A stretch of 45,181 nucleotides of DNA from the NCBI GenBank assembly GCA_937943575.1, contig CALEAV010000017.1:1-45181 (forward strand). The letters are read 5' to 3'. The notes beneath the pieces are model-generated. The model was given only the letters and a program-made list of their open reading frames with translations. It had not been told where the DNA came from and made no database searches. This document shows, piece after piece, positions 32,631 through 42,923 of this stretch (within the stretch, counting starts at the first letter, position 1; each line of letters begins with the position of its first letter). A program made the translations under genes and the position numbers. This DNA comes from an uncultured bacterium (lineage in GTDB: Bacteria > Desulfobacterota > Desulfobaccia > Desulfobaccales > 0-14-0-80-60-11).

Positions 32631-33743
32631 CTAACGGTCGATTTCCGGCACCACCACGTCGATGGAGCCCAGGATGGCCACCAGGTCCGCCACCAGGGTG
32701 TCCACCGCGATCTCCGGCAGGATGCTCAGGTTGCCGAAGGAAGGCACCCGCAGCTTCAGGCGGTAGGGGGTGGTGTCGCCCTGGCTCACCAGATAGATGC
32801 CGAACTCCCCCCGGGCGGCTTCCACCGCGGTATAGACCTCCCCCGGGGCGGGCTTGATACGCTTGGGCACCTTCTCCGCCATGATGGGGCCGGCGGGGAT
32901 CTTGTCCACTGCCTGTTCGATGATGCGCAGGCTCTGCTCCATCTCCCGGTAGCGCACCATGTAGCGGTCATAGATGTCGCCGGTGGAGCCCACGGGGATG
33001 TCAAAGTCAAAGAGGGGGTAGGCGGAGTAGGGCTCGCACTTGCGGAGGTCGTAAGGGATGCCGCTGCCCCGCACCATGGGGCCGGTGAGGCCGTATTTGA
33101 CGCACTGCTCCTGGCTGATGATGCCGATCCCCTTGGTGCGCTCCAGGAAGATGACGTTCTTGTTCACCAGGTTTTCGTAATCCCGGTAGCGGCTGCGCAG
33201 CCGCCGGGCGAAGGCCTTGCAGCCGGCGAGGAAGTCGTCGTCCACGTCCCGGGGCACGCCCCCGAAGCGGTAGTAGCAGTAGGTGAGGCGGGAGCCGGTG
33301 ACCCGGTCCAGGAGGTCCAGGATGTTCTCCCGGTCATCGAAGCAGTAGAGGAAGGGGGTGAAGGCTCCCAGGTCCAGGAGATAGGCGCCGATCCACAACA
33401 GGTGGCTGGCGATGCGGTTGAGCTCGCAGGTGATGACCCGGATGAATTCGGCCCGCTCCGGCACCTTGAGCTCCAGGAGCTTCTCCACCGCCATGCAGTA
33501 GCACTGGTTGTAGGCCAGGGCGTGGAGGTAGTCCACCCGGCCGAGGTTGGGGAGGAACTGCAGGTAGCTGCGGTTCTCCGCCATGTGCTCGTGGCCGCGG
33601 TGGCCGTAGCCGATATCCGGGTCGGCCTTGACGATGAACTCCCCCTCCATCTGCAGCTCCACCCGGAGCACGCCGTGGGTGCTGGGATGCTGGGGGCCCA
33701 GATTCAACACGTAGAATTTTTCTTCCAATCCGCGCTCAAGCAT
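32631..33743 (-). CDS. nuoD: NADH-quinone oxidoreductase subunit D
   Basis: NuoD is the 49-kDa-type subunit that forms much of the quinone-reduction site. The chosen ATG gives [28 protein letters not shown] and 370 residues. A longer frame from 33800 would only read nuoC sequence. Conserved [29 protein letters not shown] and the C-terminal [37 protein letters not shown] are all seen. The start overlaps the nuoC stop by 8 nt. Confidence 0.96.
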
Positions 33744-34188
33744 CGGCCGGGGTCTCGCTGGGGGCAAATTTTTTCCGCAGGGGGTGAAAGTCCGCCTCAA
33801 AGGGCAGCAGGATGCGCCTGAGGTCCGGGTGGCCGGCGAACTTGAGGCCGAAGAGGTCGTAGACCTCCCGTTCGTACCAGTTGGCCGCCGGGTAGATGTG
33901 GCTGATGGTGGGGGCCTCGGCCTCCTTGGGGACCCGGGCGTGCACCACGGTGCGGCACAGCTCCCGGAAATGGTTGAAGTGATAGACCAGGGTGAAGTGC
34001 TCCGGGAAGTCCACCGCGGTGAGGGACTCCAAAAAGCAGCCCTTCTCCAGCATGAGCCGGGCCACCTCCGGCATCTGGGCCGGGGCGGCCTCCACCTCCA
34101 GGTGGCAGCCGGTCTTGGCGTAGTCCCCGGGGGCCACCTGGGCCAGATTCAGGCGGCTTAAGGCCTGGGTCAGTTCATTCAGCAGCAT
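33736..34188 (-). CDS. nuoC: NADH-quinone oxidoreductase subunit C
   Basis: NuoC is the 30-kDa-type peripheral subunit. The 150-residue product has the core [22 protein letters not shown] and the signature [47 protein letters not shown]. It is not fused to NuoD, unlike the E. coli NuoCD protein. It overlaps both nuoB (14 nt) and nuoD (8 nt). Confidence 0.95.
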
Positions 34189-34675
34189 TGCGGAATTTCC
34201 TCAGACGGCCGCGGCCGGTGATCTTCTCCTCCAGAAGGAGGATGCCCTCGATGAGGCCCTCCGGCCGGGGCGGGCAGCCCGGCACGTAGACGTCCACGGG
34301 GATGAGGAGGTCGGCGCCGGGGACAATGGCGTACATCTCAGGGTAAAAGAAGGGCCCGCCGGAAATGGCGCAGTTGCCCATGGCGATGACCCACTTGGGC
34401 GCGGGCATCTGCTCATAGAGGCGCACCACCGCGGGGCCCATCTTTTTGGAGATGGTGCCGGCCACGATCATGAGGTCGCACTGCCGGGGCGAGGGTCGGA
34501 AGACGCCGGCCCCGAAGCGGTCCAGATCGAAGCGGGCGGCGCCGGCGGCCATCATCTCAATGGCGCAGCAGGCCAAGCCGAAGGTCATGGGCCACAGGGA
34601 GTTGGCCCGGGCCAGGTTCAGGGCCTCTTCCAGGACCCCGAGATGGATCAGAGGTTCTCCGGTTTTCTTTTCCAA
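34175..34675 (-). CDS. nuoB: NADH-quinone oxidoreductase subunit B
   Basis: NuoB holds cluster N2, the last iron-sulfur centre before quinone. From the TTG start at 34675 it has 166 residues, with the ligands Cys36, Cys37 ([11 protein letters not shown]), Cys102 (MGNCAISGG) and Cys134 ([10 protein letters not shown]). No ATG gives a sensible N terminus. TTG at 34675 overlaps nuoA by 28 nt. A CTG at 34651-34649 overlaps the nuoA stop as CTGA and has GGAG 5 nt upstream, giving a protein eight residues shorter. Function is certain; the start is not. Confidence 0.93.
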
Positions 34676-35058
34676 GTGAAGACCCCCCTGCACCAGGCAT
34701 AGACGATCACCAGGGAGAGAATGCCGATGAAGATGGTGATTTCGATGAAATCCCGCCAGACGTAGCCCTTGCCGTAGGCCAGCAGCACCGGGAAGAGGAA
34801 GAGCACGTCCACGTCGAAGGCCAGAAAGAGCAGGGCGAAGAGGTAGTAGATGACCGCCACCTGCACCCAGGCGCCGCCGATGATGGGCATGCCGCACTCG
34901 TAGATCTCGTCCCGGGCGGCTCCGAAACTTCTGGGGGCGATGAAATGGGCGATGATCAGCGGCCCCAGGGCGAAGAGGGCCGCGGCCACCAGGAAGACCA
35001 ACACATAGGAGAAATCCGTCAGGGCCTCAGGGATCTCCAAGCGCCACCCCTTGTGCAT
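34648..35058 (-). CDS. nuoA: NADH-quinone oxidoreductase subunit A
   Basis: NuoA is a three-helix membrane subunit whose loop contacts the quinone site. The 136-residue product contains [41 protein letters not shown], with the conserved Cys and the membrane acidic residues. It is the first gene of the operon, about 17 nt after the predicted transcription start, so the leader is very short and the ribosome binding site weak. Order A-B-C-D-H-I-J-K-L-M-N is complete except for E, F and G. Confidence 0.95.
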
Positions 35059-36797: not shown

Positions 36798-38129
36798 TCA
36801 GCGGCGGCGTTGCTTGAAAAATAGACGCAAGGGGGTGTAGGTGAGCCCCAACCGCTCCCTGAGCTGGCGCACCAGGTAGCGGCGATAAGATTCGGTGACC
36901 CCCTCGGGGTGGTTGACAAAGGCCACAAAGGTGGGGGGGTGGGTCTCCGGCTGGGTGAGGTAGTAGAATTTCACCGGCCGGTACTGAAACAGGGGCGGCT
37001 TGGTCCGGCCGGTGATCTCCTGAAGCACCCGGTTGAGCTGTCCCGTCCCCACCCTCAGGCCCATCTGGGCGTGGATGCGGTCGATCCAGGAAAAGATGCG
37101 CCGGACGTTCAGGCCGGTCAGGGCCGAGAGGGTGAGGAAGGGGGCGTAGGGGAGGAAGGTCAGGGCGGCCTTGGCCTGGGCCAGCACGTCTTTGTGGGCC
37201 TCCTTGGGCACCAGGTCCCATTTGTTGAGGCCCACCAGGCAGCCTGTGGCCGCCTCGTCAATGAGGCGGGCGATGCGCAGGTCCTGGGCGGTGACCCCTT
37301 CGGCCGCGTCGATCAGGAGCACCGCCACCTGGGCCCGCTCCAGGGTCTTGACCGCCTTCAGGGCCATGATGCGCTCCAGGCCCGGCTCCCGCAGGCTGGG
37401 GCGCCTGAGGCCGGCCGTGTCGATGAGCACATAATGCCTGCCGCCGACGCTCACCGGGGTGTCGATGCTGTCCCGGGTGGTGCCCGGCCGCTCGCTGACG
37501 ATGAGGCGCTCCTCCCCCAGGAGCCGGTTGATGAGGGAGCTTTTGCCCACGTTGGGGCGCCCCACCACTGCCACCCGCACGGCCTCCGGGTCTTCCGGGG
37601 CCGCGGCCAGAGGGGGCAGCAGGGCCGCCAGGTCATTCAGCAGCCGCTCCAGCCCCAGGCGGTGCTCGGCGGAGACGGGGTACAAGGGGTCATAGCCGAA
37701 GCGGTGGAACTCCGGCAGGACCTCCTCCCGGCCGGGATGGTCCATCTTGTTGATGACCAACAGCACCGGCTTGCCGGTGGCCCGGAGATACGCTGCCACC
37801 TCGGCGTCGGCGGGCAGCGGGCCGGTCTTGCCGTCCATCACCAGGAGGATGACCTCGGCGGCGGCCACCGCGGCCTCGGCCTGGCGGCGGATGAGGGGCT
37901 CCAGCTCATCCTCAGCGCCGGTGAGCCCGCCGGTGTCCACCAGGAGAAACGTGCGCTCCCCCCACTCCACCTTCTCCACCAGGCGGTCCCGGGTGACCCC
38001 GGGGGTGTCCGCCACCAGGGCGCGGCTGGAGTGGGTGAGGCGGTTGAAGAGGGTGGATTTGCCGACGTTGGCCCGGCCGACGATGGCCACCAGGGGCAGG
38101 CCGGGGGCGGAAGAAGGCGTGGAGGTCAT
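36798..38129 (-). CDS. der: Ribosome biogenesis GTPase Der (EngA)
   Basis: Der has two tandem GTPase domains and a KH-like C-terminal domain, and acts in 50S maturation. The 443-residue product has first G1 GRANVGKST (18-26) with TPGVTRD and DTGGL, NKMD, then second G1 GRPNVGKSS (190-198) with RPGTTRDSID, DTAGL and NKWD. The C-terminal part includes VNHPEGVTESYRRYLVRQLRE. ATG at 38129 is preferred. A TTG at 38144 would add five residues. Neither has a strong ribosome binding site. It follows a terminator-like hairpin. Confidence 0.95.
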   Translation of the reverse strand: MTSTPSSAPGLPLVAIVGRANVGKSTLFNRLTHSSRALVADTPGVTRDRLVEKVEWGERTFLLVDTGGLTGAEDELEPLIRRQAEAAVAAAEVILLVMDGKTGPLPADAEVAAYLRATGKPVLLVINKMDHPGREEVLPEFHRFGYDPLYPVSAEHRLGLERLLNDLAALLPPLAAAPEDPEAVRVAVVGRPNVGKSSLINRLLGEERLIVSERPGTTRDSIDTPVSVGGRHYVLIDTAGLRRPSLREPGLERIMALKAVKTLERAQVAVLLIDAAEGVTAQDLRIARLIDEAATGCLVGLNKWDLVPKEAHKDVLAQAKAALTFLPYAPFLTLSALTGLNVRRIFSWIDRIHAQMGLRVGTGQLNRVLQEITGRTKPPLFQYRPVKFYYLTQPETHPPTFVAFVNHPEGVTESYRRYLVRQLRERLGLTYTPLRLFFKQRRR

Positions 38130-38142
38130 AACACCGGAACCC

Positions 38143-38212
38143 AAAAACCACTGCGGCCGCCGGCTGCCTTCCCGGCCGGGGCCGGCGGGGAAGGGCGCCT
38201 CACGGCCGCAGT
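38143..38212 (-). terminator. Large hairpin between ctpA and der, terminator-like
   Basis: ACTGCGGCCG (38150-38159) and CGGCCGCAGT (38203-38212) form a perfect 10-bp stem. Inside are further nested pairs (CCTTCCC/GGGAAGG and CCGGCC/GGCCGG). On the - strand the stem is followed by GG and TTTTT, as in an intrinsic terminator. It would lower read-through into der. Confidence 0.5.
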
Positions 38213-38228
38213 CATGAGGCTCACGTGC

Positions 38229-39617
38229 TCAGGAGGCCGGCTGCTGGGCCACGATTTTGGGGGGCCAGTTTTTCAGGATCTCCACCGCCCGCTTCAGCAC
38301 CTGATCCTGCTCCAGGTCGGCGGTGGTGAGGGGCTGGTTCCAGGGCTTGTCGGTGATCCCCTCGCCCCGCATGTGGCGCTCCATGGCCTCCTCCCGGAGG
38401 GCCTGCAGGGCCTTGGCGTCCGTCGGCTCCGGCTCCTTGAGGAGGATATCCGGCTCGATGCCTTTGTCCTGGATGGTGCGGCCGCTGGGGGTGTAGTACA
38501 GGGCGGTGGTCAGGCGCAGGGCCGAGCCGTCCTCCAGGGGGATGATGGTCTGCACCGAGCCCTTGCCGAAGCTTTTGGCCCCGGCCACCACCGCCCGCTT
38601 CTGGTCCTTGAGGGCGCCGGCGACAATCTCCGAGGCGGAGGCGCTCCCTTCATTGATGAGCACCACCATGGGCAGGGAGCGGTCCTCCCCGGGTTGGCCG
38701 GGGCGGGCGTAGAAGCGCATGTTCTGCTGGGGGGTGCGGCCCTGGGTGTAGACGATGAGGCCAGAGCTCAAAAATTCATCCGCCACCTGCACCGCCTGCT
38801 CCAGCAGCCCCCCCGGGTCATTGCGCAGATCCAGGATGAGGCCCTTTAAGGGGGCGGCCTTCTGCTGCATCTTGGTGAGGTAGCCCCGGACATCCTGGTC
38901 GGTCTGGTCCTGGAAGTTGGCCACCCGGATATACCCTAGGCCGCCCTCCACGATGCGGGCCTTGACGCTGCGGATGGGAATGATCTCCCGGACGATGGTG
39001 AAGTCCTTGGGGGCCGGAAAACCCGGGCGGTTGATGGTCAGGGTCACCTTGGAGCCCTTGGGGCCCCGGATCATCTTCACCGCTTCCGTGAGGCTCAGGT
39101 TGCGGGTGGGCTTGCCGTCAATCTTGACGATCTGGTCGCCGGCCCGCAGCCCCGCCCGGAAAGCCGGGGTGCCCTCGATGGGGGAGACCACCGTGAGGAT
39201 GCGGTCCTTCATGGTGATCTCGATGCCGATGCCGCTGAACTTCCCCTTGGTCTCGATCTGCAGCTCCCGGAACTCCTCCGGGGTCATGAAGGAGGAGTGG
39301 GGGTCCAGGGTGCTCACCGCGCCCTGAATGGCCCCGTGGATGATCTCTTTGGCGGATTTGGGCTCCACATAGTGCTGTTCGATGAGGTTGAGCACCTGGG
39401 AGAAGTTCTGCAGGTGGACATCCGCCAGGGGCGGGGGGGCGGAGGCGGGGCCGCCCAGGCGCAGGCGCAGGGTCTCCCGGGCCGGGGGCTGCAGAGGCTC
39501 CCCCGCCACCAGGGCGGCGCCGGCCGCCAGGCCCAGGAGGGCAAAGAGCAGGATCAGCATACGGAGGGCATAAGATGCCAGCATGTTCTTCACGTCCTCA
39601 CGCCTGAGGTTGGGCAT
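38229..39617 (-). CDS. ctpA: S41 family carboxy-terminal processing protease
   Basis: A periplasmic serine protease of the CtpA/Prc type that trims or degrades protein C termini. The 462-residue product has an N-terminal membrane or signal segment (about residues 13-38), then DPHSSFMTPEEF, and a PDZ domain (about 125-205, GIGIEI...PAFRAGLRAGDQIVKIDG). The protease core has the Ser/Lys dyad Ser327 (GSASASE) and Lys352 (FGKGSVQ) with Gln356. An internal ATG at 39584 is an alternative start. It lies directly after a degenerate paralog in the same direction. Confidence 0.93.
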   Translation of the reverse strand: MPNLRREDVKNMLASYALRMLILLFALLGLAAGAALVAGEPLQPPARETLRLRLGGPASAPPPLADVHLQNFSQVLNLIEQHYVEPKSAKEIIHGAIQGAVSTLDPHSSFMTPEEFRELQIETKGKFSGIGIEITMKDRILTVVSPIEGTPAFRAGLRAGDQIVKIDGKPTRNLSLTEAVKMIRGPKGSKVTLTINRPGFPAPKDFTIVREIIPIRSVKARIVEGGLGYIRVANFQDQTDQDVRGYLTKMQQKAAPLKGLILDLRNDPGGLLEQAVQVADEFLSSGLIVYTQGRTPQQNMRFYARPGQPGEDRSLPMVVLINEGSASASEIVAGALKDQKRAVVAGAKSFGKGSVQTIIPLEDGSALRLTTALYYTPSGRTIQDKGIEPDILLKEPEPTDAKALQALREEAMERHMRGEGITDKPWNQPLTTADLEQDQVLKRAVEILKNWPPKIVAQQPAS

Positions 39618-39651
39618 TCTCTCCCGGCCGGGCAGCCGCCGGGCGGTCTCC

Positions 39652-40881
39652 TTAAGAGCGTTTCACCATGGCGGCGCCCCGTTTCAGATGGTCCAGCGCC
39701 TGCATGACCCAGGGATCCTGTTCCAGGGAAGGGGGAGCACTGGCCGGTTCCCCGGGGGCAGGCTTTTTCCCCTCCACATCCGGGACCAGGCCGTGGCCGG
39801 TGATTTTGCGCCCTTTGGGGGTGTAGGCGGCGGCCACCGTCATGATCACCGCGGCGCCATCCTTGAGGGGGAAGGCCTGGGTGATGCCGCACAGCCCGAA
39901 GGTCTTGTCCCCCAGGAGGGTGGCCAGCCCATGGTCCTGCAGGGCGCCGCTGACAATCTCCGCCCCCCGGGCGGTGCCCTGATCCACCAGCACCACGGTG
40001 GGGGGCAGGGTCTTAAACACCAGGTCCTGCTCCCTGCCCCGATAGACCTGGGACTCGCCGCCCTTGCGGCCCCGGGTGGAGACCACCTCCCGGTTGCCCA
40101 CCAGGAGGGAGGCGGTGCGCACCGCCTGCTCCAGGGACCCCCGGGCGTTGTTGCGCAGATCCACAATGAGCCCCTTCAGGCCCGGGTGCTGCCGCCGCAG
40201 GTCCCGCAGGAGGCCGGCCAGGGCGGCGGGGGTGTCATCCTGGAAATAGGGGATGCGGAGGTAGGCATAGTCGCCTTTCAGCATCTGGAGGGTCAGCCGC
40301 GGCGGGGGGAGCGGCTCCAGGGTGAGGGTCACCTCCAGAGGTTTGGGCAGGCCGTTGCGCACCACCTGCACCCGGATGACGGTCCCGGGGGGGCCCTGGA
40401 AGCGGCGCATGCCCTCCTGGGTGGTGAGATTGCGCACCAGCTGGCCGTTGATCTTCAGGATGAGATCCCCGGGCTTGAGGCCCGCCCGGGCGGCGGGGCC
40501 GTGGTCCAGCACTGACACGGCGGTGAGCAGGTGGTCCTTGTAGATGAGCTCCAGCCCGGCCTCCGCCGGGGCGCTGCGCCCGCCCCGCTGGAATTCCCGG
40601 TATTCCTCCGGGGTGAGGTAGGAGGAATCGGGGTCCAGGGCGTTCATCATGCCCCTGAGCGCCCCCTGCATCAGCTCGCCTTCGTCCTTGGGCTGCACGT
40701 ATTTCTGCCCGATTTCGTAAAAGGCTTCCGAGGCCAGCCTCAGGGCCTCATAGCTGTCCTGGCCGGAGGTGGCCGGTGCCGAGGGCGGCCCGGCGGCAGG
40801 CAGGGCCAGACAGAGCCCCGCCAACAGGAGCAGGGAAAGGAAGCGGCGACGCCAAAAGCTGGCCAGACCTGCTGGTTTCAC
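39652..40881 (-). CDS. S41-like pseudoprotease with PDZ domain
   Basis: A 409-residue exported paralog of the neighbouring CtpA with the same layout: signal segment (14-30), DPDSSYLTPEEYREF, PDZ domain (about 105-190, PAARAGLKPGDLILKING) and an S41 core. The catalytic residues are lost: alignment places Arg305 where CtpA has the nucleophile Ser327 (GTARGAE versus GSASASE), Leu330 in place of Lys352 and Thr334 in place of Gln356. DLRNDPGG has also become DLRNNARG. The frame is intact, so it is likely a working non-enzymatic protein, such as a regulator, adaptor or peptide binder, rather than a decayed gene. Confidence 0.88.
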   Translation of the reverse strand: MKPAGLASFWRRRFLSLLLLAGLCLALPAAGPPSAPATSGQDSYEALRLASEAFYEIGQKYVQPKDEGELMQGALRGMMNALDPDSSYLTPEEYREFQRGGRSAPAEAGLELIYKDHLLTAVSVLDHGPAARAGLKPGDLILKINGQLVRNLTTQEGMRRFQGPPGTVIRVQVVRNGLPKPLEVTLTLEPLPPPRLTLQMLKGDYAYLRIPYFQDDTPAALAGLLRDLRRQHPGLKGLIVDLRNNARGSLEQAVRTASLLVGNREVVSTRGRKGGESQVYRGREQDLVFKTLPPTVVLVDQGTARGAEIVSGALQDHGLATLLGDKTFGLCGITQAFPLKDGAAVIMTVAAAYTPKGRKITGHGLVPDVEGKKPAPGEPASAPPSLEQDPWVMQALDHLKRGAAMVKRS

Positions 40882-41112: not shown

Positions 41113-42105
41113 TCAGGAAAAGGGGCGCCCCGGTCTTCGCTGCATGACCCGCTGCGCCGCCCGGACAATGTCCCCGGGTGTGAGGCCGTAGTGCTGAAGC
41201 AGCTCCTCGGGCCTCCCGGACTGGCCGAAGACGTCCTTCACCCCCAGGCGCTCCACGGGGACGGGATACATGTCTGTCACCACCTCGCTGACGGCGCTCC
41301 CCAGGCCGCCGGTGACCAGGTGTTCCTCCACCGTCACCAGGGCGCCGGTGCGGCGGGCCGAGTCCACCACCAGCTCCCAGTCCAGGGGCTTGAGGCAGGA
41401 GAGGTTGAGGACCCGGGCGGAGATACCCTGCGCCTCCAGCTGCCGGGCCGCCTCCAGGCAGTGGTGCACCATGAGCCCGATGCCCGCCAGGGTGACATCC
41501 GTGCCCTCCCTCACAATTGTGCCCTGCCCCAGGTGGAACTGATGATCCGGGGGGTGGAGCACCGGGAAGGGCAGCCGGGAGGTGCGGATATAGACCGGGC
41601 CGTCATAGGCGGCGGCCCAGCGCACCATGGCCCGGGTCTCGGGCCCGTCCGCCGGCACCAGGACCACCATGTTGGGAAGCACCCGCATGAGGGCCAGGTC
41701 CTCCAGGGCCTGGTGGGAGCCCCCGTCCTCGCCCACCGTCAGGCCCCCGTGGCTGGCCACAATCTTGACGTTCAGGTGGCCGTAGGCGATGGTCTGGCGG
41801 ATCTGCTCCCAGGCCCGGCCGGCGGCGAAGATGGCGAAGGTGCTGGCGAAGGGGATCTTGCCCCCCACGGCCAGGCCGGCGGCGGTGCCCATGAGGTCCT
41901 GCTCAGCGATGCCCACATTGAAGAAGCGTTCCGGGTAGAGTCTGGCAAAGCGGCTGGTCTGGGTGGAGCCGGAGAGATCGGCATCCAGGACCACGATGTC
42001 CGGATTTTCCCCGCCCAGCTCCGCCAGGGTCTTGCCGTATTCCACCCGGGTGCTTTCCTTCGGCACGCCGGCGGTCTGGGCGTCTCTGTTTGCCTTACCA
42101 GCCAT
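41113..42105 (-). CDS. Transketolase, C-terminal subunit
   Basis: This 330-residue protein is the pyrimidine-binding and C-terminal half of a two-polypeptide transketolase of the pentose phosphate pathway. It shows RVEYGKTLAELGGENPDIVVLDADLSGST, FFNVGIAEQDLMGTAAGLA (with the Glu that activates thiamine diphosphate), SHGGLTVGEDGGSHQALEDLALMR and a transketolase C-terminal domain. ATG at 42105 overlaps the stop of the N-terminal gene by 1 nt (TGATG). A TTG one codon earlier is also possible. Split transketolases are well known in archaea and anaerobic bacteria. Confidence 0.93.
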   Translation of the reverse strand: MAGKANRDAQTAGVPKESTRVEYGKTLAELGGENPDIVVLDADLSGSTQTSRFARLYPERFFNVGIAEQDLMGTAAGLAVGGKIPFASTFAIFAAGRAWEQIRQTIAYGHLNVKIVASHGGLTVGEDGGSHQALEDLALMRVLPNMVVLVPADGPETRAMVRWAAAYDGPVYIRTSRLPFPVLHPPDHQFHLGQGTIVREGTDVTLAGIGLMVHHCLEAARQLEAQGISARVLNLSCLKPLDWELVVDSARRTGALVTVEEHLVTGGLGSAVSEVVTDMYPVPVERLGVKDVFGQSGRPEELLQHYGLTPGDIVRAAQRVMQRRPGRPFS

Positions 42106-42923
42106 CAACCGCCCGTCAGCTCCTTCATCGCCTGCTCGTACTCCTCGGTGGTGGGGGCCACCCCGTGGAATTTCACCTGGTCCTCAAAGATGGAGACGCC
42201 CTTGCCCTTGACGGTGTGGGCGATGAGGATGCCCGGCGTCCCGGCGTCGTGCTCCAGCTCCCTCAGGCCCGCCAGGATGGCAGCGGGATCGTGGCCGTCC
42301 ACCTCCACCACCTGCCAGCCGAAGGCCCGCCATTTCTCCGCCAGGGGCTCCAGGCGCATGACCTCCCGGGTGCGGCCGTCGATCTGCAGGCGGTTGCGGT
42401 CCAAAAGCGCCGTGAGGTGCCCCAGGCGGTAGTGGGCCGCAGTCATGGCCGCCTCCCAGATCTGGCCTTCCTGCACCTCGCCGTCCCCTAAAAGGACATA
42501 GACGCGCTGGCCGGTGCCGTTGAGGCGGGCCGCCAGGGCCAGGCCGTTGGCCACCGACAGCCCCTGCCCCAGGGAGCCGGTGGGCACCTCCACCCCGGCC
42601 AGCCAGCCGGAGTCGGGGTGGCCCTGCAGGGGGCTCCCGAAGCGCCTCAGGCTGAGCAGCTCCTCCGGCGGGAAATGCCCCAGCCGGGCCAGGACCGCAT
42701 ACAGGGCCGGGGCGGCATGCCCCTTGGAGAGCACAAAGTAGTCCCGGGGCTCTCGGCCGTTGCCGTGGCGCAGGTGGGCGAAAAACAGGGTCACCAGCAG
42801 GTCCGTGGCGGACAGCGACCCCCCCACATGGCCGGAACCGGCCCGGTAAATCATCTCCACGATGTCCCGGCGCACTTGGCGGGAGAGCCCCCGCAGTCGC
42901 TCCGGGTCGGCGATCAACTCCAT
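42105..42923 (-). CDS. Transketolase, N-terminal subunit
   Basis: The 272-residue partner binds the diphosphate of thiamine diphosphate. It contains GSGHVGGSLSATDLLVTLFF, DYFVLSKGHAAPALYAVLA, TGSLGQGLSVANGLALA, and the GDGEVQEGQIWEAAMTAAHYRLGHLTALLDRN thiamine-binding motif, ending with the conserved HTVKGKGVSIFED. It is the first gene of the two-gene unit. Its 431-nt upstream region is shared with gatC. Only a lone -10-like TATGAT (- strand, 43003-42998) was seen there. Confidence 0.93.
   Translation of the reverse strand: MELIADPERLRGLSRQVRRDIVEMIYRAGSGHVGGSLSATDLLVTLFFAHLRHGNGREPRDYFVLSKGHAAPALYAVLARLGHFPPEELLSLRRFGSPLQGHPDSGWLAGVEVPTGSLGQGLSVANGLALAARLNGTGQRVYVLLGDGEVQEGQIWEAAMTAAHYRLGHLTALLDRNRLQIDGRTREVMRLEPLAEKWRAFGWQVVEVDGHDPAAILAGLRELEHDAGTPGILIAHTVKGKGVSIFEDQVKFHGVAPTTEEYEQAMKELTGG

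Follow-up and report, generated by a model that had tools for sequence, protein, structure and literature searches.

Why should a bacterium keep, directly upstream of a carboxyl-terminal processing protease, a second protein of the same architecture that has lost its catalytic residues? The question is raised by two genes in a 45,181-nucleotide contig of an uncultured member of the order Desulfobaccales (the window), both on the minus strand and separated by 34 bp. The upstream gene, D (39652..40881, 409 aa, GTG start), encodes an exported, catalytically dead PDZ-S41 protein of the CtpA type, as indicated by ORF calls, Pfam matches, 27 intact orthologs and dN/dS values, and the downstream gene, C (38229..39617, 462 aa, ATG start), encodes an exported, active-type CtpA; no other S41 gene was found in the window's genome. 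The original prediction of a tandem PDZ-S41 pair, the downstream member active and the upstream one carrying Arg305, Leu330 and Thr334, was confirmed by ORFs, phmmer and MAFFT. CtpA-type proteases are controllers of cell-wall hydrolases, and nature appears here to have divided the active and resting roles of such a protease between two genes. In what follows, the class refers to that of the window (Desulfobaccia), represented by the window's family and a second, sister family of the same order and class.

Catalytic residues of D and C

D retains the domain order of CtpA, with N-terminal helices that resemble CtpB_N (27.3 bits, cut-off 27) and keep their hydrophobic positions, an S41 core (PF03572, 138 bits, cut-off 24) and, between them, a PDZ domain (PF17820, 48 bits, cut-off 27). 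Against the curated cut-off of NCBIfam TIGR00225 (prc, 218.6 bits), D scores below at 201.7 bits and C above at 343.4 bits. The predicted model of D (mean pLDDT 86) keeps the fold, and its top fold match is 8sxe_B, P. aeruginosa CtpA, with Z 38.8, rmsd 2.9 over 343 residues and 35% identity.

In both phmmer and MAFFT alignments, Arg305 (39967..39969, minus strand), Leu330 (39892..39894, minus), which is followed by Cys331-Gly332, and Thr334 (39880..39882, minus) of D align with Ser302, Lys327 and Gln331 of P. aeruginosa CtpA, whereas C keeps the nucleophile Ser327 (38637..38639, minus), the base Lys352 (38562..38564, minus) and Gln356. The serine column is anchored by the alignments with P. 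aeruginosa CtpA, GSASAAE in 7rpq and GSAAAAE in the 8sxe construct, where D has GTARGAE. His84, the fourth residue implicated in the P. aeruginosa active site (PMC11021448), corresponds to His107 in C and is replaced by Asp85 in D (40627..40629, minus). As predicted, the oxyanion/substrate strand is also changed, from DLRNDPGG in C to DLRNNARG in D (40138..40161, minus), this DPGG to NARG replacement being that of D in the window's family. Ser327, Lys352, Gln356 and His107 are invariant in the 25 C orthologs, and the catalytic Ser and Lys are absent from all 27 D orthologs. D is thus an S41 protein by fold and descent, yet it fails the defining catalytic test of the C-terminal processing peptidases (MEROPS S41A).

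The expectation that the substitutions themselves are conserved held for Arg305, which is Arg in 26 of the 27 orthologs, but not for the replacements of Lys and Gln, which are specific to each lineage. The Lys position is Leu in the window's family (20/20) and Asp, Asn or Glu in the sister family; the Gln position is Thr or Asn and Thr, Ser, His or Val, respectively, and the His position is Asp (20/20) and Asn, Thr or Ser. Together with a GLCG motif found in 20/20 sequences of the window's family, these data indicate that the dead site of D has been refilled with new near-invariant motifs. The acidic or polar partner of Arg305 occupies the former His position in the window's family but the former Lys position in the sister family; as judged from this single clade-level contrast, a buried Arg-acid pair that switches sides between families is plausible as a structural filler. 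Cys331 was considered as a new nucleophile and rejected, being Gly in three sister-family genomes. A Ser/Lys dyad, in place or shifted, was sought in the 27 sequences and no candidate was found. Of the former neighbours of the active site, T303, E308 and R243 are invariant in D.

Conservation, gene order and origin of D

D is carried by 20 of the 22 genomes of the window's family and by all seven of the sister family, and it is intact in 27/27 genomes of the class that have the locus assembled. True loss of D and C was considered for the two remaining genomes, G012 and G021, and found no support; the locus is probably unassembled in them, since they also lack der and the orthologous transketolase half. 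The named relatives are Desulfobacterota MAGs, several of them labelled Desulfobacca or Desulfobaccales, and one D and C pair belongs to a cultured and completely sequenced type strain, Desulfobacca acetoxidans, in which the need for a resting subunit is directly testable. When 326 genomes drawn from the phylum were searched with the profile, scores fell from 1e-131 in the sister family to 1e-100 in other classes, and the best 16 other-class matches in this draw were all active-type CtpAs. No side-by-side S41 genes outside the class were present among the matches listed in a Pfam survey of 148 genomes, and no D was found in viral contigs.

The claim of an uninterrupted frame of 409 codons under selection was borne out, since D is open and free of frameshifts in all 27 relatives and dN/dS lies far below 1; close pairs compared by the Nei-Gojobori method gave 0.10-0.38 for D, with one pair of saturated dS excluded, and 0.07-0.22 for C. 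It is near certain that D is a pseudoprotease conserved across the class.

ORFs and gene-order comparison place the pair in a conserved putative operon with the order tktN-tktC-D-C-der, where tktC and tktN (41113..42923, minus) are transketolase halves and der (36798..38144, minus) encodes the EngA GTPase; some assemblies lack or truncate the flanks, and in G022, a single-contig genome of the sister family, no tkt halves were found beside D. Farther downstream on the same strand, translations of 33736-35058 resemble nuoA, nuoB and nuoC of complex I. As proposed, D neighbours ctpA, and it lies upstream of it wherever both share one contig. In six genomes the stop of D overlaps the candidate start of C as ATGA, an arrangement that, if these starts are correct, would couple translation of the two. 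Such tight coupling is not absolute, since in L079 (1663-3190) intact D and ctpA are separated by two genes, one for a putative methyltransferase and the other encoding about 235 aa.

Outside the class, ctpA directly follows tktC without D in L122 and L128, the arrangement expected before a duplication, which is consistent with a tandem duplication at this site. All D sequences group in one clade and all C sequences in another (support 100/100 for each). The C tree separates the two families and the D tree is compatible with that separation, so D predates the split of the two families. The D stem is long, 1.39 changes per column, and a topology with D as direct sister of C is neither rejected nor established (AU p 0.45). 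By eye, most other Desulfobacterota sampled (L118-L133) carry a coiled-coil/M23-type gene resembling murein hydrolase activators upstream of ctpA and a gene resembling divergent polysaccharide deacetylases downstream of it; the corresponding places are taken by D and der in the window's class.

Regional constraint in D

Overall, D has diverged 1.64 times as much as C (23 genomes), and this relaxation is unevenly distributed. The N-terminal dimerisation helices (NDR H1+H2; D residues 42-84, 40630..40758, minus), which are helical in the model, show divergence of 0.388 in D and 0.393 in C, a ratio of 0.99 that is the lowest of all 40-residue windows, and they are the only long region in which D is as constrained as C. 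The retained C-terminal helix, equivalent to H6/CDR (D residues 390-402, 39676..39714, minus) by model, alignment and divergence, follows with 1.10, and the low relaxation of NDR and H6 together gave a permutation p of 5e-5. In the same 23 genomes the ratio was 1.5 for the PDZ domain, 1.9 for the cap, 2.0-2.3 around the catalytic residues and 3.8 for the hinge; the hinge and the PDZ loop, the most relaxed parts of D, would be needless in a subunit that does not bind. In the N-terminal four-helix bundle the hydrophobic positions are kept, and the last helix is retained too. Homodimers of D would explain the equal constraint on the helices just as well. No co-evolution of the D and C helices emerged from distance-matrix tests (partial r 0.08; within-clade excess 0.000), and there was no sign of gene conversion between the two genes.

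Loss of ligand-binding and trans-acting elements

The PDZ domain of D had been described as intact. Its fold is indeed retained, with a Pfam match and model confidence of about 84-96 over the domain, but the elements that bind and sense a ligand are lost. The carboxylate-binding loop, defined in CtpB as Gly113-Ile114-Gly115-Ala116 (PMC3808539) and present in C as G129-I130-G131, is Glu107-Ala108-Gly109 in D (40555..40563, minus), so that Gly-Ile-Gly is replaced. The sensor Arg (CtpB Arg168, C Arg184) is Gln162 in D (40396..40398, minus), with Gln in 25/27 D and Arg in 25/25 C; this position was matched by the equal 55-residue spacing from the loop in D, C and CtpB and not by alignment with CtpB.

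D also lacks the long trans-interacting (motile) loop that precedes the last helix in C (C residues 394-432, 38322..38438, minus) and that in P. aeruginosa CtpA lets a resting subunit reach the active-site His in a neighbouring dimer (PMC11021448). The resting-like conformation of the AlphaFold model of D was considered as a sign of a locked subunit and discarded, as the model of C, run as a CtpA control, gives the same conformation.

Interface residues of C

The partner has changed as well. A set of 22 CtpAs from outside the class defines 84 near-invariant reference columns. Four of the 84 are lost in C, and two of the four, which correspond to Val52 and Met77 in P. aeruginosa CtpA, belong to the N-terminal dimer interface described in PMC8764530 (hypergeometric p about 0.055, post hoc). 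Column comparison gives Ala100 of C (39318..39320, minus) at a dimer-crossing position that is Met in 22/22 outside-class CtpAs and altered in most C of the class. At the Met77 position most C proteins of the window's family carry Ala or Thr and D has Met or Leu in 26/27, and at the Phe49 position C is mostly Phe whereas D is not. We count the changes at the Val52 and Met77 positions as tentative support for a heteromer of C and D, against which stands the missing co-evolution signal at the helices.

A possible resting subunit

The CtpAs of P. aeruginosa (PMC11021448) and H. pylori (PMC12749690) are trimers of dimers with only one active subunit in each N-terminal dimer. Against this background, a subunit with no role but resting would be expected to look like D, with the N-terminal dimer helices kept and proteolysis, PDZ ligand binding and the activation switch gone. 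We propose that D stems from a tandem duplication of ctpA that took place in the common ancestor of the class or earlier, and that it became a dedicated non-catalytic subunit of CtpA type. By way of the N-terminal four-helix bundle, D would pair with CtpA and take the resting half of the dimer permanently. Each dimer would then have a fixed complement of one active and one resting site, access to the active tunnel would be gated and D would be freed from binding substrate. We infer co-transcription, physical pairing of C and D and a regulatory effect of this pairing from the evidence above, which leans to an assembly partner rather than an inhibitor or activator of CtpA. That D is the permanently resting partner in a C:D hetero-oligomer is the reading that we tentatively prefer, at odds that fall somewhat short of even. 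The broader statement, that the C-terminal processing protease of the class is an obligate hetero-oligomer whose resting subunit has become a separate gene, with a division of labour between active and dead subunits, is put forward with a little more reserve.

Other explanations have to be weighed against this one. D could instead act independently, as a homo-oligomeric scaffold or binding protein in which the old pocket (Arg305 with Asp85 or Asp330, and Cys331) has been rebuilt for a new ligand or an envelope protein, its adjacency to ctpA being a relic of the duplication. There is a precedent in IRBP/RBP3, where an S41-like fold serves a non-protease, retinoid-binding function, and IRBP modules are among the structural matches of D (Z 15-19). 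The near-invariant new motif at the dead site (Arg in 26/27, GLCG in 20/20 of one family) and the missing co-evolution signal would agree with such a protein, and the whole neighbourhood is syntenic, which makes adjacency alone weak evidence of interaction. However, it is the cap, tunnel and core that are relaxed relative to C and not the dimer helices, Cys331 is lost in three sister-family genomes and interface residues of CtpA have changed in the same lineages, and we regard an independent D as unlikely, albeit as an alternative to be taken seriously. An inhibitor or decoy, in which D would be a dominant-negative subunit of CtpA dimers whose dose sets protease activity, draws on the same assembly evidence as the resting subunit and on the position of D immediately before C in the same orientation; a co-expressed inhibitor in fixed ratio gives by itself no regulation, and this explanation appears improbable.

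The other roles considered fit the data poorly. The adaptor or substrate trap raised in the original prediction, which would bind C-termini through the PDZ domain, could point to the retained PDZ fold, but with the peptide-end loop (GxG) and the sensor Arg replaced and the substrate strand changed from PGG to ARG it is very unlikely. A different catalytic activity through other residues could call on the invariant T303, E308 and R243, yet E308 and R243 are shared with active CtpAs and T303 is common in them, and the 27 sequences offer no invariant Cys, Ser or Lys pair as a replacement, which leaves this slightly more remote still. Finally, the lost catalytic residues and the 1.6 times faster evolution of D relative to C might suggest a decaying pseudogene; intact frames in 27/27 genomes of two families and dN/dS of 0.10-0.38 rule this out for practical purposes.

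If D is the resting subunit, C-terminal processing proteases would join the families with dedicated dead subunits, and a division of labour between active and permanently dead subunits would be one that is undescribed for this family in the literature searched. No earlier report of a paired pseudoprotease of C-terminal processing proteases was found in that literature, whose coverage mostly leaves out subscription journals.

Comparison with known systems

The closest structural relative is P. aeruginosa CtpA, studied with its activator LbcA, a TPR lipoprotein (PMC8764530, PMC11021448), which resembles the D and C pair in domain order, forms an asymmetric dimer with one resting subunit and is the best fold match of D. 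There, one gene gives both subunits and each is competent, whereas D is without any active-site residues and without the trans-interacting loop. H. pylori CtpA (PMC12749690) is likewise a hexamer with one active subunit per N-terminal dimer but is a homo-oligomer of identical, competent subunits. B. subtilis CtpB (PMC3808539) shares the NDR-PDZ-S41 architecture and a switch between resting and active states; unlike D, it is active and has the PDZ Gly-Ile-Gly and Arg168. IRBP/RBP3 (4lur, 7jti, 9frx) has an S41-like fold but is an animal protein without a partner protease and matches D only at Z 15-19.

A second dead PDZ-S41 family, in Acidobacteria (L087-L117), has like D lost Ser and Lys in nearly all members, but with Ser replaced by Gly, Lys by Glu and the Gln kept. 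Most of its about 31 loci read GTxGxxE ... FGEGxVQ (for example L101, 7958-9200); the Lys position is Thr in L088 and L089, and a Ser is kept in L091. In the one complete genome checked, L101, the gene lies far from the CtpA-type genes. A grouping of this family with D (SH-aLRT 94) was not trusted, given its long stem (1.76).

In how it would work, the resting-subunit model is closest to the ClpR subunits of ClpPR cores (PMC6508832, PMC7966870), inactive paralogs kept in a serine protease assembly. ClpR belongs to an unrelated protein family and ClpPR complexes have been shown biochemically, whereas the C:D complex is a proposal; D resembles a ClpR-like subunit in being a paralog of the active subunit that has lost its catalytic residues and is a co-directional, co-retained neighbour of it.
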